Origin: Labia minor
Lineage: Eukaryota > Arthropoda > Insecta > Dermaptera > Spongiphoridae
DNA length: 64,000 nucleotides
Reading direction: 5' to 3'
NCBI GenBank assembly: GCA_963082975.1
Contig: OY720344.1
Span: 82,572,053 to 82,636,052 of the forward strand
Notes under the pieces: model-generated
Databases searched by the model: none
The model's input: only the letters and a program-made list of their open reading frames with translations
Told to the model about the DNA's origin: nothing
Part shown: positions 641 to 54,746 of the stretch, piece by piece
How the letters are laid out: each line of letters opens with the position of its first letter
Numbering within the stretch: position 1 is the first letter of the stretch
Position numbers and translations under genes: made by a program

Positions 641-1221
641 TTTTACTACCGCGCCAGAGATAATATTGCGATCACGAAAAATGTCGATGTCGAGATTTTG
701 ATGTTTTTATACTTTTTGAAGGTCCCTGACTCTTTTTCACTAGGGTTGAGAAAAATGTCTGTGTGTGTGTGTGTGTATGTAGGCAAGATTACGCAAAATG
801 CGATGTGAGCTAGAATAATGAAATTTGGTACATGGGCATTGTTCAAAATTCTTAGTTTTCTATCAACTTTTGAGAAATGTAGCTCATTCGCTCTCTAAAC
901 TGACCGTAAAAATAAAGTCTATGTTTGATAGTTTTTCATATGATTAAAAATCGTATAAAACTGCTAAATATAGAATAAATCAGCTTGATTGAATCGCTGA
1001 AAGTACCGGAATTAATCTTTTAAATTTTTTAACACTTTGATTGCCAATCACGCGCCAGCACGTGACGTGGTGTCATCAATAAAGAGCCAAACATGTGCTG
1101 GTTTAATAAATATTATTTATTAATTTTAATTTATAATTCATAATTAATTAAATTTAATTTAAATATAATGTATGTTATTTAATCCAATTCAAATTGCGAG
1201 TTTGGAGACATTCCAGATTTT
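641..1221 (+). mobile_element. Family Y, copy 1: Helentron/HINE-like non-autonomous element
   Basis: This is one of six copies of a dispersed repeat in the window. In order it shows a 5' end TTTTACTACCGCGCCAGAG, a (TG)n run near 758-777, a conserved module reading GAAATTTGGTACATGG, and an AT-rich 3' half. It ends in a short stem-loop region followed by a T run. The family consensus has ACTATCTCGC at the 5' end and its reverse complement GCGAGATAGT just before the 3' stem-loop (GAGTG, GAGA, CACTC). This copy is the most diverged at its 3' end, where part of that motif is lost. The architecture matches non-autonomous Helentron-associated elements (DINE-1/HINE type). The class is inferred from structure, not from a database match. 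Confidence 0.7.
758..777. repeat. (TG)n microsatellite inside family Y copy 1
   Basis: A run of TG dinucleotides lies in the central part of the element. Runs of TG or TATG occur at the same relative place in copies 2, 3 and 5, so the microsatellite belongs to the element. Confidence 0.85.
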
Positions 1222-2179
1222 CAAAAAAACGTTAAATTCACTTTTGGCTCCATAAGATCAAAACCAATTTAAAATAAAAAATAGTTGCACTTTTTCGGAT
1301 ATTCTTTGTGTTCACTTTGTTAAAATCCATATTATTATTTAAAAGTTTATTTACTGATAAAGACTAAGAAAAACTGGCCTCCGTTTGGTTGTTGGTCGAT
1401 GTTCGGATGTGTCTGCCCCACCTGGGGCAACTGACAGTCCACAAACATTTGTTCCAGCCACGCAAACAAGCACAACTACATTTTGTTTGGCCACGTTCAA
1501 CCATTCAATAAAATATATAAACGCCCAGCCAGCTATAAACTACCCTTCAATTATGTATGATTGTCCCCTTAAAGCTCACTTTTTTTTCGAAAAATAATAT
1601 TCAATTTTTGTTTTTTTTTAACATTAAAACATAAATTTCTATTTCTACTCGTCATAAAAATTGTTTTTATTTTAAAAACTACCATGGTGTATAAAACACC
1701 TGGCATCGATAAAAGTCATTTATCGATATGAATGAAAAATACACTAATATGATGCCAAAATAATTAATTATTTAAATTCTCAATGAGTATAAAATAGGTA
1801 ATTTAATAAAAATATTGAATGTCCCATTTATAAATATAATATATTATTATTATGAAATGTCACGTAAATGTTGATTATACATCCAAAATTATTTACATAA
1901 TATTAATATAGTCGCATAAACATCAAACAAGTTATTAACGTTTGAGTCTGTCTACTAATTAATTATATCTTAAATAAACTTTAATTAAATACAAAAAACA
2001 AAATAGATATTTTATTTTTAATGTAAAAAAAACAAATATATATATATTTAACCGTTTACTGTGTTTTTAATGAAAAAGTAACCTTTAAGAGTATAAACTG
2101 AATTTTAATTCTATTATTTTTAAGGCTCAACACAACGTTTCATGTAATTTTATATTATCAAAAGGTTTATTTATGAATG
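1222..2179. other. AT-rich sequence, no gene seen
   Basis: A slightly GC-richer island at about 1375-1560 contains a 70-codon frame with no recognisable protein similarity and no flanking splice evidence. The rest is A/T runs with a TA run near 2037-2050. I assign no function. Confidence 0.55.
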
Positions 2180-15332: not shown

Positions 15333-15815
15333 TTTTTATTATCTCGCCAGAGATTTTGATGATTTATAATTTTTGAAGGTCCCTGAATCATTTTCACTAA
15401 GGTTGAGAAAAATGTCTGTATGTGTGTATATGTGTATGTGTATGTGTGTATGTAGACAAGATTACGCAAAAGCGGTTTGAGCTAGAAGAATTTGGTACAC
15501 GGGCATCATTAAAAATTCGAAGTTTTCTATCAACTTTTGAGAAATGTAGCTCATTCGGAAGAGAACTATTACCTACCACATTTTCATTTTTTTCTTCTAA
15601 ACTGACCGTAAAAATAAAGATCTATGTTTGATAGTTTTTCACGTGATTAAAAATTGTATAAAACTGCTATATATAGAATAAATCAGCTTGATTGATTCGC
15701 TGAAAGTACCGGAATTAATCTTTTAACACATTGACTGGCAAGCATGTGCCACAGCATGTGACGTGGTGACATCAACAAAGAGCCAAACATGCGCTGGTTT
15801 AATAAATATTATTTA
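15333..15815 (+). mobile_element. Family Y copy 2, left part, interrupted by a Helitron
   Basis: The copy starts TTTTTATTATCTCGCCAGAG, passes through TG-rich repeats at about 15416-15450, and shares the conserved internal segments of family Y up to AATAAATATTATTTA at 15801-15815. There the element stops and resumes at 17191 with TTAACTTTAATTTATAATT. In uninterrupted copies these two parts are contiguous. Confidence 0.82.
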
Positions 15816-15824
15816 CTAGCTGCT

Positions 15825-15845
15825 CAGAGCTCCTTCGTCGCTCTT
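15825..15845 (-). other. Helitron 3' hairpin
   Basis: The imperfect stem AGAGC with GCTCT lies about ten bases inside the CTAG terminus. In the better preserved copies the stem is eight base pairs (AGAGCGCC/GGCGCTCT). This hairpin is the replication stop signal of the family. Confidence 0.75.
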
Positions 15846-16039
15846 CACATCTAGACGGGGGCTCCGCCCCCTGTACCCCCGAGTGGTACATAGTATTTGG
15901 TTGAAAGTAGTAAAAGGTTTTCATCCATTTTGTTTCAAACAATGTATAACATAAAACATTCATTTCTTATTGTGTGATTATTTAAAATATATTTTAATTT
16001 ATTTAGTAAATTAATTATATATATTATTATTGAATATGT

Positions 16040-16660
16040 TATATCTATCTACTCGAAAGTTCTTGGCAGCTACAACCACATTTCTCCCCGGTGACCTCAT
16101 CTTTCTTTGGCCAATAAATGCTGGAAAGAATAATCTGAATCCACATCATCTCCTAAGATCATAGACCATGTCTCACACTCATATAATACAACAGACAAAA
16201 TAATTGTTTTATATATTTTAATTTTCATTCCCTTTTATAATAATTTTGATGAGATAAGCCTCTTTACTGCATGATAACAGGCGTTTCCCGATTGCAACTT
16301 CGATTTAAATTCTTCTCAAATATTATTATCCTTCGTGATTACATTCAATTTTTCTACATATTCAAATTCTACATTTTGTTTGTTAATACTGTTTGTTTCT
16401 AAATATATTTATTTATCATTATTAATTTCAAACCTCATCTCTTTTCCTATCTCGATTAATTTTTCCTCGCTATCTGTAATTGCAATTGCCGAATCTCCTA
16501 TTATATTTAAGTCGTCTGGGTCACCTAATATTTTACAATTGATTTCCACATCTTACTCTTTCTTTACTACCTTCAAGATAAATTTTAAGATCAAAATTTG
16601 AAAAAGTTTATCCGGATCTATTGAGTCATGCGTAGGTTTTACTAAAGTCTACATCATTTC
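16040..16660 (-). pseudogene. LINE pol fragment inside the 15816-17190 Helitron
   Basis: The minus strand matches the LINE at 2438-3595. Visible parts are the region encoding VDFSK near 16650, the catalytic motif changed from YADD to a PDD form (CCAGACGAC), YLGS-region remnants, and the 3' tail ending in GATAGATAT. The part encoding NGLKQGDALS is deleted, with the same joint as in the 47640 Helitron. Frameshifts and a further deletion around 16075 remove coding capacity. Confidence 0.82.
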
Positions 16661-17190
16661 ATTTTGATATTTTAATTTCATTGCTTGATTTTTATTGAAT
16701 ATTTTTAATTATAATAAAATTTGAGAAAATGCAAAGTTAGAGACTTGAGACAATTTATAAAAATTAACGGTATAAAAGTATTGATAAAACTAAAGATAAA
16801 TTAACAATATATACATTCATTAATAGTATTAATTTAAATTAATGGATTTATTTGATATTTTATTATTAAGTTCATTTATTAATTTTTTTAGATCATAGTT
16901 AATTCTCTCCCTTAAAATAAAAGAAGTATTCAAATATAGAAAGAATAAATACAAAATAATTTAAGTTAAATATGATTTAAATATTTTATTATATTAATTA
17001 AAATGAGAACTTGTTTAGAATAAATTATTTAATTGAAATGATATTTGAATATTAGAATTTAAAATAAAAAGTTAAATATTATAATAATTCTTTGATTGGG
17101 AATTTCTTTTTTGTTTGTTTCTATGACAGCAAAAAAGTAAACAAATTACATACATACATACATATAAACACTCTCCTTTATATATATAGA

Positions 17191-17294
17191 TTAACTTTAA
17201 TTTATAATTAATTAAATTTAATTTAAATATAATATATGTTAATTAATCCAATTCAAATGTGAGATAGTCGAGTGGAGACACTCCAGATTTTTTT
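17191..17294 (+). mobile_element. Family Y copy 2, right part
   Basis: It continues the 15333-15815 copy after the Helitron. It ends with GAGATAGTCGAGTGGAGACA, where GAGTG and CACTC can pair around GAGA, followed by CTCCAGA and a T run. This is the family's 3' stem-loop terminus. Confidence 0.82.
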
Positions 17295-23532: not shown

Positions 23533-24150
23533 ACCGACCGACGATAGTAAGGGAGGTATTGTTTTCACACCAAATTTCACATGTGGAGATTTTTACATAT
23601 CTCCACGAATCATGCATTTTCTTAACAGAAAAAAGTATTTTTATCATGATGTCTGTCCGTCCGTCCGTCTGTCCGTCCGTATAGATGTGTACAGCCTGAA
23701 CGGCTCAACGGATTTTGATGAAATTTGGTATATTTACTTAATGCATCAGTAGGATGAATTGATCAACTTTTGGTGCAAATCCTGAAACCGGAAGTGGTAG
23801 TATTAGCGATCGACGATAGGAAGGAAAGGGTTATTTTCACACCAAAGGAGATTTTTTTTATATATCACCACGAATCATGCACTTTGTATTGGTTTTATCC
23901 TCGAGAAAAATCATATTTATTAGTTTTTTCTTGATTTAAAATTATATGACGTCATCCAGCCATTCATGACGTCACAGTCTGGTCTTACATATATATTATA
24001 AATAAAATAAAATTAAAAATATTTATGTTATATCCATATCTGTTTTTTATTACATTAATAGATATATTAAAATTATTTGAAATTGTTTCTGTAGCTGGAA
24101 ATTAATTTATTTCAAACCGTCGGTCGGTTCGGACCTGACCAAAGGTCAAC
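23533..24150 (+). mobile_element. Family Z copy 2, chimeric
   Basis: The left end is complete: ACCGACCGACGATAG at 23533, then the conserved leader, the GTCCGTCCGTCTGTCCGTCC repeat near 23655, and GATTTTGATGAAATTTGGTA. At about 23806 a second, partial leader begins (CGATCGACGATAGGAAGG). It runs to a V-like segment (TTGGTTTTATCCTCGAGAA, near 23890) before the Z tail ending ACCGTCGGTCGGT at about 24126. The copy is a mosaic of two Z parts and a V piece. Confidence 0.7.
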
Positions 24151-25051: not shown

Positions 25052-25653
25052 TTTTTACTATCTTGCCAGAGATAATATTGCGAAGACGAAAATTTTCGAT
25101 GTCGAGATTTTGATGTTTTTATACGTTTTGAAGGCCCCTAAGGTTGAGAAAAATGTATGTGTGTGTGTGTGTTTGTATGTCTGTATGTAAACAAGATTAC
25201 GCAAAAACGGTTTAAAACTAGAATAATCAAATCTTGTACACGACCATTATTCAAAATTCGTAGTTTTCTATCAACTTTGAAGAAATGTAGCTCATCCGGA
25301 AGGGGTCATTACCTACCACGTTTTCATTTTTTCCTCTAAACTGCCCGTAAAAATAAAGATAGATATTTAATAGTTTTTCACCACATTAAAAATTGTATAA
25401 AACTGCTATATAGAATTTCAGCTTGATTGAATGACTGAACGTACCGGAATTTTTTAACACGTTGACAGGCAAACACGAGCCAACGCGTGATGTCGTGCCA
25501 TCAACAAAGAGTCAAAAACGCGCTAGTTTAATAAATATTATTTATCAATTTTAATTTATTATTTAATTAATTAAATTTACTTTAAATATAATATATTTTA
25601 ATTAATCTAATTCAAATTTGCGAGATAGTCGAGTGGAGGCACTCCAGATTTTT
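25052..25653 (+). mobile_element. Family Y copy 3 (nearly complete)
   Basis: The left end reads TTTTTACTATCTTGCCAGAG. The right end reads GCGAGATAGTCGAGTGGAGG and then CACTCCAGATTTTT. ACTATCTTGC and GCGAGATAGT are inverted relative to each other with one mismatch, and the 3' stem-loop is intact except one loop base. The central TG run is at 25157-25171. Between them lie the conserved ACGCAAAAACGG module and the GCCAACGCGTGATGTCGTG segment. No coding capacity is present. Confidence 0.78.
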
Positions 25654-34395: not shown

Positions 34396-36518
34396 TTTTA
34401 GTTAAATAATTAATTAATTTATTATTGTTAATAAGATAAAATTAATAGTACAGATATAATTTTGTTAATATATTATATAATAAAACATATTTATAAAGAA
34501 TATAAAAATCTGTTGTAGTTAACTATTATTATGTTTAAGTCATATAATTTTTATTATTATTAACCAGAATTTTCCGATAGTTTTCATTTATTAAAATATT
34601 TTATAATTCAAAGATGAATTATTAATTTATTTACAATATTTGATATTCACCACAATTTTTTTATTAAATAGAATGTATAATCAAGAATTGACCATAATCC
34701 TCTTTTTATGTTATAACAATATGTAATGTTATCTAAATTATCCGCCAATAACTCTGTCCGATTAGCAACATTTTGGAAAAATTGATTATTGATTTTGAAG
34801 AACCGCTCTCAACCTCTCCACCACCTTCTACCCCCCACCCCCCAACTGATTTTGATCCAGATGGGAACCGTTTGATCGTCTGCCTTTTGTGTCCCAATCG
34901 CTTAAATCCTAATCCCTTACAATAACAGTACTAGTTTTATTTTTATTAAATATTTATTAGATTTTATTGAGTTAATATTTTCATACGATACGAAATGAAT
35001 AAAAATATATAAATAAAAATAAAAATGGTTGAAAATAAAAAACAAACAAACTAATATTGGATAATAATACAATAATTAAATTATTTTTATAAATCAGTTT
35101 ACCCTTTTTTTCGTTATTATTTTTTTAATTTTACATTTAAATTACTTTTTTTAATTATAAAATTTTATTTTTTAATTGACATAAAGATAAAGTTTTCATA
35201 TCGATTTCAAACCTATTTGAGCTGATGTGTATTTTTAATAATAATAATATTGTCTTTTAAATTGAGAAACATAATTTTTTTTTTCTTTAAAAAAAAAAAT
35301 AATAAATTTAATACCTCACTTAATTCTAGAGCTATCATAATTTCAACAAATAATAAAAAAAATTACATAATACGTTATTTATTCTATCACATATAAATCT
35401 ATTTTAAAATTCAATTATGTAAAAATGCTTTTAATTTGTCACACTTAAGTATAATTCTGTCAAAACAAAAATCAATTTTTTTTTGTTCTCTTGGGTAAAA
35501 ATCTGTCCATAATGGTTAAAATCATGAATGACATGATAATAATATTTTTTATTAAAAAATTATTCATTTATTTCTTATCGAATGAAAAATACAAATAATT
35601 TTGTCAATTATTAATATTAGGTATTAAAAATAATTATGAGTTAATTTTCATTTTCTCCTAAATTTAATTAAGTAATCAAAAATATTTTAATTTATTTATA
35701 AATTGAATATATTTAAAATGTTTGCATAATATAATAAGCAGTCATTATGGAACAAAAAAAAATACACAAATGACTTTATTTTTGTAGTTCTTATTAATAG
35801 TCGTATTTTAACTTCACTTTAATTTCACTATTAATTCTCCTGTTATAAAACCTTTATTATTACACGATATTTCAAAGTTTTTATAATATAAAGTTTGCCG
35901 TATTCATAAATATTTAAAATTAAACTATGTCTACGAAAGTTGTTATCAAAAGGAGAATTGACTTTTTTTCAATATCCTACTCCTGATAAGACTTAATTTG
36001 ACTTGACGTGATAGCCTTTGTAGTTTTTTTTCACGAAGCCTGAATGTGTCAAAAGGGCTTGGCTCGTATTTTGGTGGCGCGTGCTCTCCATTTGAAAGTA
36101 ACCTGAAATTGGCAGCAAATGTGAGTCTAAATTAACTTGTAGCTATCTCCGCCAACGTAACTTTGAGAAAGAAAGTAAGAAAAAGAGAAGACACAACAAC
36201 GAGTTTCATATCAAATGAGTATTTGAGACAAAGTCGTTATCATCGGGTCAATGATCTCCAAAGTTTCATTCGGACTTGAGCTATTATTTTTTTTTTCAAA
36301 ATTTAAAAATATCCTTTTGGCATGACTATTTATCTACTTCAATTTTAAGTTTGAAGTAATTTAGCTTATTTTCATAGCCAATACTTTTCTATTATTTATG
36401 AAACTTTGAAATTCTCTAAATGAATGAATAATATTTATTTATTTATAGCTTTTCTTATTGGTTCACAATTTCATTATTTACAAATGAATATTTTTTTAAC
36501 AAAATATTAATTAATTAA
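34396..36518. other. AT-rich DNA with two GC-richer pockets
   Basis: A C-rich stretch (CCCCCCACCCCCC) lies in a pocket at about 34795-34925. A second unique pocket spans about 35990-36280 and includes TTGGTGGCGCGTGCTC. No open frame or RNA gene is recognised in either. Confidence 0.5.
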
Positions 36519-36988
36519 ACAAAAACGGTTTAAAACTAGAATAATCAAATCTAGTACACGGCCATTATTCAAAATTCGTAGTTTTCTATCAACTTTTGAG
36601 AAATGTAGCTCATCCGGAAGAGGGTCATTACCTACAACATTTTCATTTTTTTTCCCCTCTAAAATGACAGTAAAAATATAGATATAAGTATGTTTGATAG
36701 TTTTTCTCTTGATTAAAAATTGTATAAAACTGCTATATATAGAACTTCAGCTTGATTGAATCGCTGAACCTACCGGAATTAATTTTTTAACATGTTAACT
36801 GGCAATCACGCGCCAGCACGTGACGTGGTGCCATCAACAAAGAGCTAAAGACGCGTTGAATATTATTTATTAATTTTAATTTATAATTTATAATTAATTT
36901 AATTTAATTTAATTTAAATATAATATATGTTAATTAATCCAATTCAAATTTGAGAGATAGTCGAGTGGAGACACTCCAGATTTTTTTT
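36519..36988 (+). mobile_element. Family Y copy 4, 5' truncated
   Basis: It begins at the ACAAAAACGGTTTAAAACTA module, so the 5' subterminal repeat and microsatellite are missing. It ends with GAGATAGTCGAGTGGAGACA, CTCCAGA and a T run. The 3' half is almost identical to copy 5, including a shared loss of bases in the ACGCGTTGAATATTATTTA region. The two copies therefore form a subfamily. Confidence 0.75.
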
Positions 36989-36991
36989 ATA

Positions 36992-37300
36992 GTGGAACCA
37001 AGCCCTTATGGCCAAAGATCACTCCCAAGTGCCTCCAAACTCTTCTTTGTTTGGCAATTCTTTGCCATACTACCCCTGTAATCTTTGTAATTTCGTCAGT
37101 TCATCTTTCTATCTAGTGGGTACCATTCTGTAATTGTCTTGGTCCATTTTTCGTCTTCTGTTCTAGCTAGGTGTCCCGCCCATCTCCATTTCAAATTTTT
37201 AATAAGAAAATTAATCTTAGTAATATGCGAATTTTTGTAAATTTTATCCATCTATATTAACATGGTCTCCTCTCTTTATCCCTACGATGCTGCTCAATAG
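36992..37300 (-). pseudogene. LINE C-terminal remnant of a second subfamily
   Basis: The minus-strand translation gives LKWRWAGHLARTEDEKWTK, then TEWYPLDRK, a pattern found at the C-terminus of several non-LTR polymerases (RWAGHIAR...WTK...EWRPR). Stops and small indels follow. The sequence differs from the LINE at 2438-3595, so it is another subfamily. Its 3' end directly abuts the T run of family Y copy 4. Confidence 0.68.
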
Positions 37301-41220: not shown

Positions 41221-41676
41221 TTTTTACTATCCAGCCAAAGATAGTAAGTATTATGATTACGGAAATGTGTGTGTGTGTGTATGCAGACAAGATTACGCAA
41301 AAACGGTTTGAGCTAGAATAATGAAATTTAGTACACGGCCATTATTCAAAATTCGTAGTTTTCTATCAACTTTTGAGAAATGTAGGTTTGATAGTTTTTC
41401 TCATGAGATTAAAAATTGTATAAAACTGCTATATATAGAATTTCAGCTTGATTGAATCGCTGAACCTACCGGAATTAATTTTTTAACATTTTAACTGGCA
41501 ATCACGCGCCAAGACGTGATGTAGTGCCATCAACAAAGAGCTAAAGACGCGTTGAATATTATTTATTAATTTTAATTTATAATTTATAATTAATTTAATT
41601 TAATTTAAATATAATATATGTTAATTAATCCAATTCAAATTTGAGAGATAGTCGAGTGGAGACACTCCATATTTTT
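41221..41676 (+). mobile_element. Family Y copy 5
   Basis: The left end is TTTTTACTATCCAGCCAAAG and the TG run is at 41266-41280. The conserved module reads ACGCAAAAACGGTTTGAGC. The right end is GAGATAGTCGAGTGGAGACA, CTCCATATTTTTT. The segment between microsatellite and start is shortened relative to copies 1 and 3. Its 3' half is closest to copy 4. Confidence 0.78.
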
Positions 41677-42112
41677 TATTTTATCATTTTAAAAATGTTA
41701 TTCAATTAATTTGATTAACTTTGATTTTCAATTTAAAGTTATTCATTGAAAATCAAAATTAAAAGTAATCTAATATAAAAATTAATTTATTACTGATAAT
41801 TTATTAAATAGAATTGTTTATGTTTTGTTATATTAATAATATAAAATTATATAATATTTGTTGTGAATATTCAATTCCTGTGCGGGCAACCATTGGTACC
41901 ACTAGGCCACGGTGCTGCCAGCCCACGGTCCACCACGGTCTTGTTAGTCAAACTGTCATGTAAACAACTTATACTTTCTCTCTCGCACACGTTATCTTTA
42001 CTTTTATTCAACTCAATATAATTCTATGTATAAATATTAGAAAAAGTTTATATTTTACAATAAATCTTTTTCTTATCAACTAATTGTTTTTATTCCGACT
42101 CTGCTCCATCAA
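41677..42112. other. AT-rich DNA with a tRNA-like GC-rich patch
   Basis: At 41880-41945 the minus strand contains TGGCCTAGTGGTACC, an A-box-like sequence, but I find no B-box at a proper distance. The patch also contains three copies of CCACGGT. It might be a truncated tRNA-derived SINE. The rest has no features. Confidence 0.35.
42105..42112 (+). repeat. Left 8-bp target-site duplication of the hAT MITE
   Basis: TCCATCAA here is repeated exactly at 42728-42735 on the other side of the element. Confidence 0.9.
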
Positions 42113-47639: not shown

Positions 47640-47648
47640 CTAGCTGCT

Positions 47649-47670
47649 CAGAGCGCCTTCGGCGCTCTTC
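47649..47670 (-). other. Perfect Helitron 3' hairpin (inner copy)
   Basis: AGAGCGCC and GGCGCTCT pair around a three-base loop, ten bases inside the CTAG terminus. A second GC-rich stem, GGGGGC/GCCCCC, lies just upstream at about 47681-47697. Confidence 0.9.
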
Positions 47671-47872
47671 ACACCTAGACGGGGGCTCCGCCCCCTGTAC
47701 CCCCGAGTGGTACATAGTATTTGGTGGTTGAAAGTAGTAAAAGGTTTTCATCCATTTTGTTTCAATCAGTATATTACATAAAACATTCATTTCTTTTTGT
47801 GTTCTTATTTAAAAAATATATTTTAATTTAATCACTATATTAATTATATATATTATTATTGTATATGTTATA

Positions 47873-48712
47873 TCTATCTACCTATGTGGCTCAAAGATAC
47901 TCGAAAGTTCTTAGCCGCAACAACCACATTTCTCCAAGTGTCCCTATCCTGAGCCCTTGTTCCATCTCTCTTACGTCCCTTCCTACGCGTCATTGGTTTT
48001 CCAAGCGGACGTTTTCCAATTGGTCTTCCCACCAATATCTTTTTCCTCTCCCATTCTAGCCACGTGCCCTGCCTATCGCAGTTTTTTCCCTTTTATAACC
48101 CTAACTATTTCTGAAGATGCAGAGAGGCCATGCAATTTCTTGTTATGCAGTCTCCCCCATACCCGGTGACCTCATCTTTCTTTGGCCAATAAATGCAGGG
48201 AAGAATCCTATTCACAAATACTCTGAATCTACTCCCATCTCCAAGGGTCATAGACCATGCCTCCCACCCATATAATGCAACAGGCAAAATAATATTTTTA
48301 TATATTCCCTTTGATAATAATTTTGAAGAGATAAGCCTCTTTATTGCAGATAACAGGCGTTTCCCGATTGCAACCCCGATTTAAATTCTTCTCAAATATT
48401 ATTATCCTTCGTGATTACATTCAATTTTTCTACATATTCAAATTCTACATTTTGTATCTTAAGATTTTGTATGTTAATACTCTTCCTCTTTGTTACTAAA
48501 TATTTTTTCTTATCCCTATTAATTTCAAACCTCCATTAAATTTTCCTCGCTATCTGTAATCGCAATTGCCGAATCTCCTATTATATTTAAGTCGTCTGGG
48601 TAACCTAATATTTTACAATTGATTTCCGCATCTTATTCTTTCTTTACTACCTTCAAGACAAATTTGAAGATTGATTGGATCTATTGAGTCATGCGTATGT
48701 TTTACTAAAGTC
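47873..48712 (-). pseudogene. LINE pol fragment inside the inner Helitron
   Basis: The minus strand gives the VDFSKTY region near 48700. A deletion removes the NGLKQGDALS part, after which the motif encodes a PDD form instead of ADD (CCAGACGAC near 48590). Then come the ENVEKLN and DEFK-R-QSGN regions, VALYGWEAWSMTLGDGSRFR in the 60-codon frame at 48105-48287, the GHVARMG region, and a GATAGATAT tail. Frameshifts and stops abolish function. The deletion joint and the PDD change are shared with 16040-16660. Confidence 0.85.
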
Positions 48713-49129
48713 TACAAATAATTAGTGAACAGATTGAATATTGAATTCGCGGTTTTTTTCCTAATATCTGTCATAATGAAAATATCTTAATTAATGTTGG
48801 TCGATTTGGCCTGAACCCGCAATGATATCTCCTAATATTTCCTCCGCCTATGGTTCTTAAGTATTGTATATGTTATAATAGTGAAATAGAGTATAATATT
48901 TCTTGATCATTACATTTTGGTATTTTATTTTCATTGCTAGATTATTATTGAATATTTTTAATTATAATGAAACTTGAAAAAATGCAAAAATAGAGACTTG
49001 AGACAATTTATAAAAATTAACGGTATAAAACTATAGATAAATGACCAATATATACATTCATTAATAGTATTAATTTAAATTAATTGATTTATTTGTTTTT
49101 TTTATTATTAAGTTCATTTATTAATTTTT

Positions 49130-49285
49130 CTAGATTTTAGTTAATTTCCTCCCTTAAAAGAAACTTATCTAATTCTGTGGTGCTAGGGGATTTGAAAATT
49201 ATTCTTCGTAATATGAAGATTTCGCTTACAGTTTCTGTCATGTCCGACCTCCATCCAACAGTTATTTTTCTCAAGTTTTTTGCTT
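49130..49285 (-). pseudogene. Conserved reading-frame fragment in the inner Helitron body
   Basis: The minus-strand frame reads KITVGWRSDMTETVSEIF, continues to FKSPSTTELDKFLLREEIN, and then meets a stop. The same frame is open further in the outer Helitron (51628-51816), and its end part also survives in the 15816-17190 copy. I do not recognise the protein. It may be a captured gene piece or an old part of the element. Confidence 0.5.
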
Positions 49286-50765
49286 CTCTTAATCATGTGA
49301 TCTATATATTTAATTTTTTTTGATTCATTATAATAAAATTTAAACAAATAAAAATTTTCACTTTGTTAATTTATATAAATTTCAATTTAAACTGATTGTG
49401 AGTGATACGCTTAGCCAATACTCTGAATAATTTGTGTACAAAAATATTGAATGTTCTTAGCGAGATTTGATATAATGTTGTACGATTTGTCCTAAATCTG
49501 AATTAGAAGAAAATTATAAATTGCCTCCTCTTCCAGCCCAATTCATTTACCCACCCATGTTGCATATGGCATCTAAATTTCTTAAAACTCCGTTTTTTTT
49601 AATTTAAAATAGAAGGAGAGAAAGAGTTTTAAATTATATTCGAATAGTCTATATATTCTATATATCAGTATTTTTTTTCTGAATTTAATAGCAAGTTGAT
49701 TTTAAAAATTTTCCATTCTTAATGCATATGATTGATTACATGTGTTAAAATTTAAAAAAATTCAAATATTCTAATTTTTATATTTATATACAATTTAATA
49801 TTATTTTTTATTAATATCATATCAAAAAAAGAGAATTTATTAAAAATTAAAAATAAAAAAAGAAGCCTATTAATAAAAAATTGAATGGTGATTTAATTAT
49901 TTTATTAAATTAATTAAAATGAGACCTTTTAGAATGAATTATTTAATTGAAATGATATTTAAATATAAGAATTTAAAAAAATATTATATTCTTTGTTTGG
50001 CAATTGTTATTTAATTATGTGCAACATGATTCGACTTGCACAGAGCATCGTTATTTTTTATTAATATCACATAATAAAAATGAATCTTTTAAACATAATA
50101 AATAAAAAAAACATTTTAATAAATTTAAAAAATATATCCAATTTAAAAATGTCAAAAATTTAAAACAACTTTATATCATCATATTTTAATTTTTATATAA
50201 TATATATATATATATTTAGTAATTAATAATAGAGTAATTAAATTAAAATAAAAAACAAAGATAATATAATTCAGTCATTTTAATTCAGGTTAAATAATAT
50301 TTTTTTTTTATTATTCAATATTAAAATTTATATATTATTATATATATATTATAGAAAAGAAGAAATATTCAATTAAATAAAAAATAATTTAAGATAAAAA
50401 TATGATCTAATAAATATTTTAATTAAATTGAGAACTTTTAGAATAAATTATTTAATTGAATTGATATTTGTATATTAGAATTTAAAATAAAAGTGAAATA
50501 TTATAATAATTCTTCGATTGGGAATCGCTATGATAATTCATTGTTTGAAATGATTCCGCTAGGCCGGCAGTGAGCCGCGAGCTGCTCTTGAATGAACAAC
50601 ACGGAGAATTATATAAACTTTAAAAAATTAATTTCTGCGGTTATTGATAAGATATTAATAAAATTTATAGCCTATGTTACTCTAGAGGTATATAAGAATA
50701 TTGTGATGTAATTTCAAAGAAATCGGTTCAGCCAATTCTGAGTCTATAAAATAGTAATTTTCCGG

Positions 50766-50780
50766 ACAGACAGACAGACC

Positions 50781-50815
<35 letters not shown>
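50766..50815. repeat. (GACA)n microsatellite in module X
   Basis: Repeated CAGACAGACAGA units, with one GACC interruption, lie inside the 5' module of the inner Helitron. The left copy of the module has only a short GTCTGTCT at the same place. Confidence 0.9.
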
Positions 50816-51627
50816 GTGAAAAATTCTAAAGTCACTTTTGGATTCTAGAGGTCATGAAACGCGAAGATATGCAAAAATTTTTAAATTCTGAGCAATGTGC
50901 AGACAAAAACCTTTTTTTATATATATAGAAGATATAAGATATATATATATATATATAATTCTTCGTGTTGTTCATTCAAGAGCCTGGCGTGGCCCACTGA
51001 CCCTAGCGGAATCATTTTCACAATGTGTATATATTAATTACTTATAGGAAGTCCCAAACAAAGAATTAATATAATATTTTTTTTTAAATTCTTATATTTA
51101 AACATCATTTCAATTAAATAATTTATTCTAAAAGTTCTCATTTTAATTAATTTAATAAAATATTTTACTTAATTTTTATTTATTCTTTCTTATATTTGAA
51201 TATTTCTTCTTTTCTATTTGAAAGTGAAAGGTTAAAAAAACAGAATATATTATTTTTAATGTTCTTTCTCTCCTTCTATTTTAAATTTAAAAAAACGGAA
51301 TGTTAAGAAATTAAGATGCCTTATACAACATGGATGGGTAAATGAATTGGGCTAGAAGAGAAGGCAATTTGTAATTTTCTTCTAATTCAGATAAAGGACA
51401 AATCCGGACAACATTATATCAAATCTCGCTAAGAACATTCAATATTTCTGTACACAAATTATTCAGTCTTGGCAAAGCGTATGACACAATTAGTTTAAAT
51501 TGAAATTTATATAAATTAACAAAGTGAAAATTTTTATTTATTTAAATTTTATTATAATGAATCAAAAATTTAAATATATAGATCACATGATTAAGAGAAG
51601 CAAGAAACTTGAGAGAAAATAACTATT

Positions 51628-51816
51628 AGGTCGGACATGACAGAAACTGTAAGCGAAATCTTCATGTTGCGACTAATAATTTTCAAATCCCCTAGCACCA
51701 CAGAATTAGATAAGTTTCTTTTAAGGGAGGAAATTAACTATGATCTAAAAAAATTAATAAATGAACTTAATAATAAAAAAACAAATAAATCAATTAATTT
51801 AAATGAATAATATTAT
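51628..51816 (+). pseudogene. Conserved reading-frame fragment in the outer Helitron body
   Basis: About 62 codons are open from RSDMTETVSEIFMLRLIIFK through TTELDKFLLREEINYDLKKL and a lysine/asparagine-rich tail to a stop. An upstream stop prevents a longer frame. The tail part (REEINYDLKKLINELNN) is also legible in the 15816-17190 Helitron. The function is unknown. Confidence 0.5.
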
Positions 51817-52059
51817 TGAATGTATATATTGTTAATTTATTCTAAAGTTTTATACCGTTAATTTATATAATTTGTCTCAAATCTGTAACTTTGCATTTTC
51901 TCAACTTTCATTATAATTAAAAATATTCAATAAAAATCAAGCAATGAAAATAAAATATCAAAATGAAATGATCAAGAAATATTATACTCTATTATAACAT
52001 ATGCAATACCTACGAACAATAGGCGGAGGAAATATTAGGAGATATCCCCGTCTAGGTGT

Positions 52060-52090
52060 GAAGAGCGCCTTCGGCGCTCTGAGCAGCTAG
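52060..52090 (+). other. Perfect Helitron 3' hairpin and CTAG terminus (outer copy)
   Basis: AGAGCGCC and GGCGCTCT pair around the loop TTC and are followed by GAGCAGCTAG. The loop is the reverse complement of that in the other two copies. Confidence 0.9.
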
Positions 52091-52704: not shown

Positions 52705-54542
52705 ATTTTAATAATATAATATATTTTTACATCAATATATATGAAATTATAAATTTCTTTCTATACAATATATTATTGTAATCTTGAAAATTACTTTCAT
52801 TTCAAAGAACAATTAAAATTAATCTTTTAAAAAATTAACATTTGAAATAATTAATATTGATTCCAGTGAAATAAATTTTTATATTTATTTAATTACAAAA
52901 AAATTAATATATTTTTAAAAGAAATGATTACTGACTCCAATAATCATCAAATTTCATTTGTTATATAAAAAAAATTTAAATATTTTTTACTATACTTATT
53001 AAAGATAAATAATTATTGCATATAACTTTCTTTAAATCATAATCAATCCCTCAAGAAAAATGCATGTACGTAATTCACATATTTGTTTCATAATACATGT
53101 AACATGTATAAATAAAATGTGTAGGGAGGGTTGCAGACTCCTAAACTCGTAAAAATATCATAAATTGGTTCCTGGAACTTGAATTCGTAAAGAAATATCA
53201 AAATTGCTGTTCTGTTTTTATCATGATAGAAATATGATATATATGTTATATATATATACATAATATACATATGAATACGGTATACACAAAATATATATTT
53301 TAACTTAGTATAGAAATATATATATAAAAAACACATTTCTCAATTTTTCTCTAGAAGTTTCAATTTAGATGAATATAATTTTTTGCTTTGACTTATATTT
53401 TATCACTAATATATTAATTCTATATAAATCATACAAATTAAAAATGAATAAATATATTAATATGTAATGATTTTGTTAAACACTCTCTATTATAATTTAT
53501 AAAAAAAATATTTTCACAAATGATTATAATTGAAAACATAAATGAACATTATTCGTTAATTATTTTAAATGTTTTCATTTATATTTATAATATCCAATTG
53601 CTACCACATACATCTTCTTGTATTGTCTATTCATACAAGCATGAATAAATTATTATTATGATTGTATAATATTAAATTATACAATTGGTTGTAATTAATT
53701 TTTGTATCTAATAATATTATATATAAAGTTATTAATGAGAAACACAGGATATGTTGTTTTGAAAAAAGAAAAAAAAAACAAAATTAATAAATAAACAACA
53801 ACAGATTTTAATATTTTCATTTATAATTATATTTAGGGTTGATTAGTGGAAGGGGTTTATTCTCATGGATAATAATCATTAAATTATATTTATCGACCAT
53901 TAACTTACCAACAAAACAATCACGACACTTTACCGGCAATCTTCATGTAAATCTTTACGTAACAAATTTACGATGTCATAAACTGAGTGAGAAGAGAAAA
54001 GGGAAATTGTAGAAGTGTGAGGAAGGGAGTGAGGGAGAGAGGGCACCGTGCGAAGGGTTAATTTTGTCACAAAAGGAGTTAAGATTAGGATTAAGTAGGA
54101 TGAGAAGGAAGAAAATACAAAGAGACACGACGACGAAATTAACCACCAGGAATGATTTTAATGATTACCATAATATTCTGCAATTCTATAGGTGTTACAT
54201 TTACTCCAAGATCATCTATAGAATATAAAGACTGAGTTTATACAAATAAACAAATTAATATATATATATATATATATATATATCAAAATTTTATAATAAT
54301 AGGCGGCTCTAAAATTAATGAGTCAAAAAAACTCAACTTTTCATCGTTGAATTAATTTATTTGTTTATTTCTAAAAATTTCTAGAACAACATCTTTAATT
54401 TCAATATTTTACATTCATAATTATTTTCTAAATGTTTTTACTATCTCTCTTGATTATAGTATTGCACTAAAATAGCACTGCTTTGATGATTAATATATAA
54501 TTTGTTTCAAATTTTGTTTCATTTATTGTTTCCCTTTTTACT
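52705..54542. other. AT-rich sequence, no gene seen
   Basis: A unique purine-rich pocket (GAAGGGAGTGAGGGAGAGAGGG) lies at about 53990-54150, and a (TA)n run lies at 54260-54283. No open frame has family features. Confidence 0.5.
54260..54283. repeat. (TA)n microsatellite
   Basis: A pure dinucleotide run. Confidence 0.85.
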
Positions 54543-54746
54543 ATTACCTACCACGTTTTCATTTTTTTCCGCCAATCACGCGCCAGAACGTGTCGTTGTT
54601 TCATCAACAAAGAGCCAAACACGCACTGGTTTAATAAATATTATTTATTTATTTTAATTTATAATTTAATTAACTATATTAAATTTAAATATAATATATG
54701 TTAATTAATTTGCGAGATAGTCGAGTGGAGACACTCCAGATTTTTT
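54543..54746 (+). mobile_element. Family Y copy 6, internally deleted
   Basis: It starts at ATTACCTACCACGTTTTCAT, so the 5' subterminal repeat and microsatellite are absent. It then jumps to CGCCAATCACGCGCCAGAAC. The 3' terminus is perfect: GCGAGATAGTCGAGTGGAGA, CACTCCAGA and a T run. Confidence 0.75.

Follow-up and report, generated by a model that had tools for sequence, protein, structure and literature searches.

The window examined here is the whole stretch of 64,000 nucleotides that was analysed (G000:C1:82572053-82636052), and it belongs to the 604-Mb assembly of 71 contigs in which the genomic searches were carried out. It contains several plus-strand copies of a repeat, termed family Y, the second of which is divided by a unit of 1375 bp lying on the minus strand. 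The features concerned are the following:

692..1225, plus strand: Y copy 1, with an empty site between 1119 and 1120
15333..15815, plus strand: left (5') part of Y copy 2, a HINE/Helentron-like repeat
15338..15354, plus strand: 5' subterminal repeat of Y, ATTATCTCGCCAGAGAT in the window copy
15816..17190, minus strand: non-autonomous canonical Helitron of 1375 bp, TCTATATATATAAAGG...GAGCAGCTAG, with flanks A and T
15816..15844, minus strand: 3' terminus of the insert, an imperfect hairpin AGAGCGACGAAGGAGCTCT and then GAGCAGCTAG
15857..15871, minus strand: GC-rich palindrome GGGGGCGGAGCCCCC, upstream of the terminal hairpin
17177..17190, minus strand: 5' terminus of the insert, TCTATATATATAAA
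17191..17294, plus strand: right (3') part of Y copy 2
17261..17268, plus strand: 3' subterminal inverted repeat of Y, GAGATAGT, the inverse of ACTATCTC at the 5' end
17270..17283, plus strand: 3' hairpin of Y, GAGTG-GAGA-CACTC, followed by CAGA and a T run
25104..25653, plus strand: Y copy 3, uninterrupted between 25544 and 25545
36514..36992, plus strand: Y copy 4, uninterrupted between 36869 and 36870
41268..41677, plus strand: Y copy 5, uninterrupted between 41565 and 41566
54540..54746, plus strand: Y copy 6 (partial), uninterrupted between 54647 and 54648

The joint in family Y

In Y copy 2, the left half runs up to 15815, where its last bases are ATTATTTA, and the right half restarts at 17191 with TTAACTTTAATTT. 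The left part matches 692-1119, 25104-25544, 36514-36869, 41268-41565 (two pieces) and 54540-54647 (two pieces), and the right part matches 1126-1221, 25547-25653, 36876-36992, 41572-41677 and 54653-54746. The joint is uninterrupted in each of the other five window copies of Y: the exact sequence ATTATTTATTAATTTTAATT crosses it in three of them (those starting at 692, 36514 and 41268), and the copies at 25104 and 54540 depart from it by one substitution each. These five copies were found by each flank separately and are hence free of any bias towards continuity.

For the rest of the genome, 40 of 9227 candidates were scored and 20 loci (L009-L028) were fetched. The joint is continuous in all 20, a count biased towards continuity because the query was an uninterrupted copy and its best matches were the ones taken. 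One of them, L009, is window copy 1 itself, which leaves 19 further genomic empty sites besides those of the window. The base before the joint is A in 19 of the 20 loci and G in L015. No base is lost or added at the joint in an alignment of 24 rows, in which copy 2 is represented by its joined flanks, next to window copies 1, 3, 4 and 5 and the 19 genomic loci, with the partial copy 6 left out. The initial annotation had described a Y copy split by the insert while its relatives are intact, and this description holds for five copies in the window and 19 in the genome, which share the same joint without a gap.

According to one alternative, there was no insertion and the other Y copies have precisely lost 1375 bp. 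Its probability is practically nil: nothing in its support was found, at least 24 further Y copies would have to share the same exact loss, and the same kind of unit is present with the same ends in unrelated flanks elsewhere. It is also scarcely credible that the junction is an artefact of assembly or a product of recombination between repeats. The region is indeed repeat-rich, and the junction was examined in assembled sequence, but the two Y halves keep their order and orientation and join with no base missing, and the ends of the insert coincide with the ends of its family elsewhere.

The position of the insertion is left with a single base of play. The A at 15815 equals the A at 17190, so that the insertion point can be shifted by one base with no change in the sequence. 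The earlier claim that the unit entered between A and T and duplicated nothing is backed by clean empty sites, with the reservation that a one-base slide is formally possible. The boundaries, which had been called fixed to the base, are narrowed to two adjacent and equal placements rather than to one certain base.

The insert and its genomic siblings

Read on the minus strand, 15816-17190 has TCTATATATATAAA as its first bases and GAGCAGCTAG as its last, with A preceding and T following. The 5' end together with its A flank has its sole exact match in the window here, and 113 window matches appear when up to two mismatches are allowed, owing to TA runs. A genome search with this sequence yielded 132 matching pieces (40 scored of 2252 candidates), and the set analysed consists of 40 genomic loci, namely the window copy and 39 fetched ones. 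Thirty-six of them, the window copy and 35 others, align to within three bases of both query ends and are called two-ended here. The other four miss one query end (L029, L034 and L051 at 5', L041 at 3'); they may be truncated or diverged, and the fetched stretch of L051 starts inside the element.

The ends of this family are highly uniform. The element starts with TC in 35 of the 36 two-ended loci, the exception (L045) being a slipped copy with a longer TA run and a TC further out. The 5' flank is A in 35/36 and the 3' flank T in 36/36, and the last four bases are CTAG everywhere except in L050, which has CTAA (35 and 1 of 36). The flanking bases lie outside the search query, and since A and T each account for only about 0.37 of the bases of the insert loci, chance is no issue for this agreement; L062-L064 have a common 5' flank and are hence not independent. 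The 15-base 3' end occurs exactly 4527 times in the genome, compared with 0 for a reversed control. It had been proposed that copies ending at different points would speak against these boundaries; this was tested on the 40 loci, and in the 36 that align at both ends, the ends agree.

This uniformity bears on another reading of the termini, a one-base target duplication (T in the orientation of the Helitron), by which the element would be CTATA...CTAG instead of TC...CTAG. The base after the element is the same as its first base in 36/36 two-ended loci, and the two placements are indistinguishable by sequence. However, PMC4067079 gives TC...CTAG, placed between A and T, as the Helitron rule, and the sections of PMC4778049 on Helraiser describe TC joined to A and CTAG joined to T in 10 sequenced insertions, although these junctions are formally just as ambiguous as long as the nick is unmapped. 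A duplication is accordingly regarded as very unlikely, and TC...CTAG is kept as the extent of the element.

Empty sites were also sought for the siblings, by comparing the joined flanks of the 36 two-ended loci with the sequence retrieved. Clean ones were obtained for 6/36: the window copy, L033, L037, L046, L058 and L067, where some of the spanning matches counted below are one genomic place counted twice. For the window copy, 33/35 spanning matches are clean. The single match of L033 is clean (1/1) and lies, at 98%, within the RepHel Helitron of L080. L037 (9/9 clean), L046 (7/9) and L058 (7/7) occupy three different positions in a third repeat. L067 (C1:68978700-68982100; 27/34 clean) has the same Helitron in Y-like sequence at a different AT and, by these flanks, is a second Helitron insertion into a Y-type repeat. 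L043 was considered and dropped, as only 1 of its 31 spanning flank matches is gapless at the joint and they have the look of simple repeats; the remaining 29/36 gave no passing empty-site match in the sequence compared.

The window itself holds, at 23846-24148, an uninterrupted copy of the third repeat that is the target of the Helitron in L037, L046 and L058.

By comparison with its siblings, the window unit derives from a longer family by internal deletion. It is without about 175 bases at element position 538. At that point, 38 of the 39 siblings align on both sides and carry extra sequence, of about 158-181 bases in 37 and of 776 in one; L042 is the one sibling that is not judgeable there. 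A direct repeat that is absent from the window copy is carried by 22/39 siblings, as counted from alignment spans. The element is 1607-2061 bp long in 33 of the 36 two-ended loci, the outliers being the window copy (1375 bp), L042 (3228 bp) and L049 (4228 bp). The deletion of about 175 bp is inferred to be specific to the window copy or its close kin.

The window copy appears as a mosaic among the 40 loci scored, its 5' part being nearest to one set of siblings and its 3' part to another. Closer siblings may exist beyond these 40.

The terminal hairpin and RepHel elements

The 3' end of the insert had been described as a hairpin plus CTAG on the minus strand. Both are present, but the hairpin is imperfect: the terminal palindrome spans 19 nt, lies 10 nt from the end and forms six of eight stem pairs, where the criterion for canonical Helitrons asks for a palindrome of 16-20 nt some 11 nt before the 3' end. 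Among the 39 loci in which a 3' end is present, 35 agree in all of the last 29 bases, and the imperfection is therefore a trait of the subfamily. When folded as DNA, the last 80 nt of the insert, in which the GC-rich palindrome GGGGGCGGAGCCCCC forms a 6-bp stem, give a z of -3.56 (0/200 shuffles as good), and the last 50 nt give a z of -1.47 (16/200), which is no exceptional fold. Two further exact GAGCAGCTAG ends are found in the window (47640 and 52090), which on reading stand behind a perfect stem.

Window segments 47640-49163 and 50374-52090 are more diverged relatives of the Helitron, in both orientations and apparently nested in each other.

The insert is non-coding and, at 1375 bp, has no room for a RepHel of its own. 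The genome holds 104 matches to PF14214, and for three RepHel loci at least 7.5 kb of sequence was read. One of the three contains an element of 8216 bp at C4:72530932-72539147 (L083 and L081), which reads TCTATATATATAAA...CAGCTAG with A before it and T after it. This element encodes an open frame of 1722 aa that matches PF14214 (Helitron_like_N) and PF05970 (PIF1) and bears the Helitron-type signature RGLPH. Over the last 148 bases it shares 93% identity with the insert, its 3' end also contains the GC-rich palindrome GGGGGCGGAGCCCCC, and its 3' hairpin has 8/8 stem pairs. At the 5' end, the first 14 bases are the same, a TA-rich stretch with an E of 0.14 on its own, and the two differ beyond it. 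From these similarities, the C4 element is a plausible trans-acting partner of the insert. The direct partner may be another element, since only the 14 TA-rich bases match before the 5' ends diverge.

A second copy, on C5, shares 868 matching bases with the C4 element and reaches 19 bases past the CTAG. When the flanks of the C4 element are joined, 21/53 matches span the joint and 20 of these 21 are gapless right there, including window 50374-50650, where several matches are one genomic place counted twice; the text at the joint is ATTTA in 10 of the 21, compared with TATTA in the flank. The joined flanks being continuous in relatives, the C4 element lies inside another Helitron. This reading is complicated by 19 other places that share the passage from its CTAG into this flank, the last 148 bases matching in full at 17 (40 of 2356 candidates scored). 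The recurrence of the same junction at these places argues that it was copied as part of a composite; thus the Helitron-in-Helitron unit seems to have been copied whole, and the boundaries of the C4 element may rest on one event.

At the sequence level, L081:6501-7000 (C4:72539000-72539499) shows a Helitron 3' end that crosses CTAG into the 5' part of a Helitron on the opposite strand, an arrangement that recurs at 87-95% identity.

In Helraiser experiments (PMC4778049), the 3' hairpin acts as a terminator, the deletion of which raises read-through while insertion persists. It could be supposed that weak 3' termination with read-through is a regular route by which composite Helitrons multiply in this genome, because a weakened 3' hairpin is fixed in a subfamily of many copies and the composite junction recurs at 19 other places. 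This proposal is considered unlikely.

A commoner RepHel family, represented by L080 (C9:43362500-43370500), was rejected as a partner on its 3' end, GGTACTAA, which stands behind a different hairpin; TCTATATATA is absent from the 8001 bases of L080 read, a stretch that stops short of its 5' end. L080 and its copies make up a second Helitron family with a hairpin plus CTAA end. Five of the 104 PF14214 matches report its frame of 1652 aa with the same score, and most of the closest copies are about 98-100% identical in flanking DNA; the family has possibly been active recently. The third RepHel locus, L082 (7501 bp), bears RGSPH, a signature listed as Helentron-type in the text available of PMC4067079. 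As for the N-terminal parts of these frames, those of L080 and L082 match STPRs repeats (PF21107), and that of L082 also matches DUF6570 (PF20209).

The host repeat, the order of events and known Helitrons

The best-kept Y copies start with TTTTTACTATCTCGCCAGAGATAGTA and end with GAGATAGTCGAGTGGAGACACTCCAGA plus a T-rich edge. Such edges are present in many of the listed copies and missing from some. At the 5' end, ACTATCTCGCC, the first 11 bases of a palindrome, is found in 7 of the 20 fetched loci, the full palindrome ACTATCTCGCCAGAGATAGT is found in 3/20, and the fold of the repeat has a z of -3.71 (5/200 shuffles as good). GAGATAGT is present on either strand in 17/20, a count that takes in either end. 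The 3' hairpin is exact in 11/20 loci, and its fold has a z of -1.96 over 41 nt (9/200 shuffles as good) and of -0.61 over 110 nt (53/200). Lastly, window copy 2 includes a GT-rich microsatellite.

Palindromic subterminal inverted repeats, a 3' palindrome, T-rich edges and a microsatellite make up the set of HINE features in the text available of PMC4067079, and Y shares these hallmarks with the DINE-1-like non-autonomous Helentrons of Thomas et al. 2014 (PMC4067079). Its end structure supports the reading of Y as a HINE-like repeat, that is, one like a non-autonomous Helentron, which agrees with the "Helentron-like" host proposed in the initial annotation. The alternative is that Y is an AT-rich repeat unrelated to HINEs or Helentrons. 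No autonomous partner with Y ends was found among the 3 of 104 PF14214 loci read at 7.5 kb or more, the 7501 bp of L082 are without exact Y end motifs and its frame matches no endonuclease family at E 0.001, and the hairpin and subterminal repeat of Y are exact in part of the copies only. Against this stands the combination itself, with the subterminal palindrome, its 3' inverse, the hairpin inside a T-rich edge and the microsatellite, which is the HINE set as it appears in PMC4067079; an unrelated origin is therefore judged unlikely, and Y is treated below as HINE/Helentron-like.

The two families also differ in age. Y copy 2 differs from the 23 other Y copies by a median of 11.3%, as do all 276 pairs, and the insert differs from its siblings by median substitutions of 1.3% in the 5' part (37 loci) and 1.8% in the 3' part (38 loci). 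Only substitutions were considered for the insert, and both figures are low estimates for their families because both sets consist of closest matches (to copy 1 in the case of Y). Nesting, together with about 11% versus about 1-2% divergence, supports the proposed order of the two insertions, with Y as the older, and on these values the insert family looks young.

Taken together, the TC start, the CTRR end, the target between A and T, the precise empty site, the many copies with the same ends and the RepHel relative support the initial classification of 15816-17190 as a canonical Helitron. The most satisfactory explanation for the locus, held here with great confidence, is that a non-autonomous canonical Helitron would have been copied by a rolling circle, with RepHel acting in trans, into an AT of an old HINE/Helentron-like repeat. 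The RepHel of the C4 element or of a relative would mobilise the insert in trans, the insert would be copied by rolling-circle transposition, each reaction step of which is presumed, and the copy would land between the A and the T of a Y copy that was already old.

A full-text search of the literature, as distinct from sequence libraries such as Repbase, yielded no paper with the 5' end of the insert and the word "Helitron". No Rfam family reached its gathering score in the window, and viral contigs gave no match to one 21-base pattern from the 3' part of the insert. Paralogous empty sites are routine evidence in the field, as illustrated in parts of PMC4067079 and PMC6544945, and the one described here confirms the insertion rules of Helitrons and orders two repeat families in time. 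Furthermore, insertions that differ between individuals are likely, given that the family looks young and that an element with similar ends and an open RepHel frame is present, and in them lies the practical use.

The insertion is an ordinary and well-documented event with a known mechanism, of which this locus is a clean example. In the text available on canonical animal Helitrons (Helibat/Helraiser, PMC4778049; insect Hel1, PMC6544945), the same TC and CTAG/CTRR ends and 3' hairpin are described, likewise with a target between A and T without duplication, a RepHel relative and many short non-autonomous copies. Compared with them, the insert shows nothing different in kind; what sets its subfamily apart is the imperfect 3' hairpin of the examined siblings.
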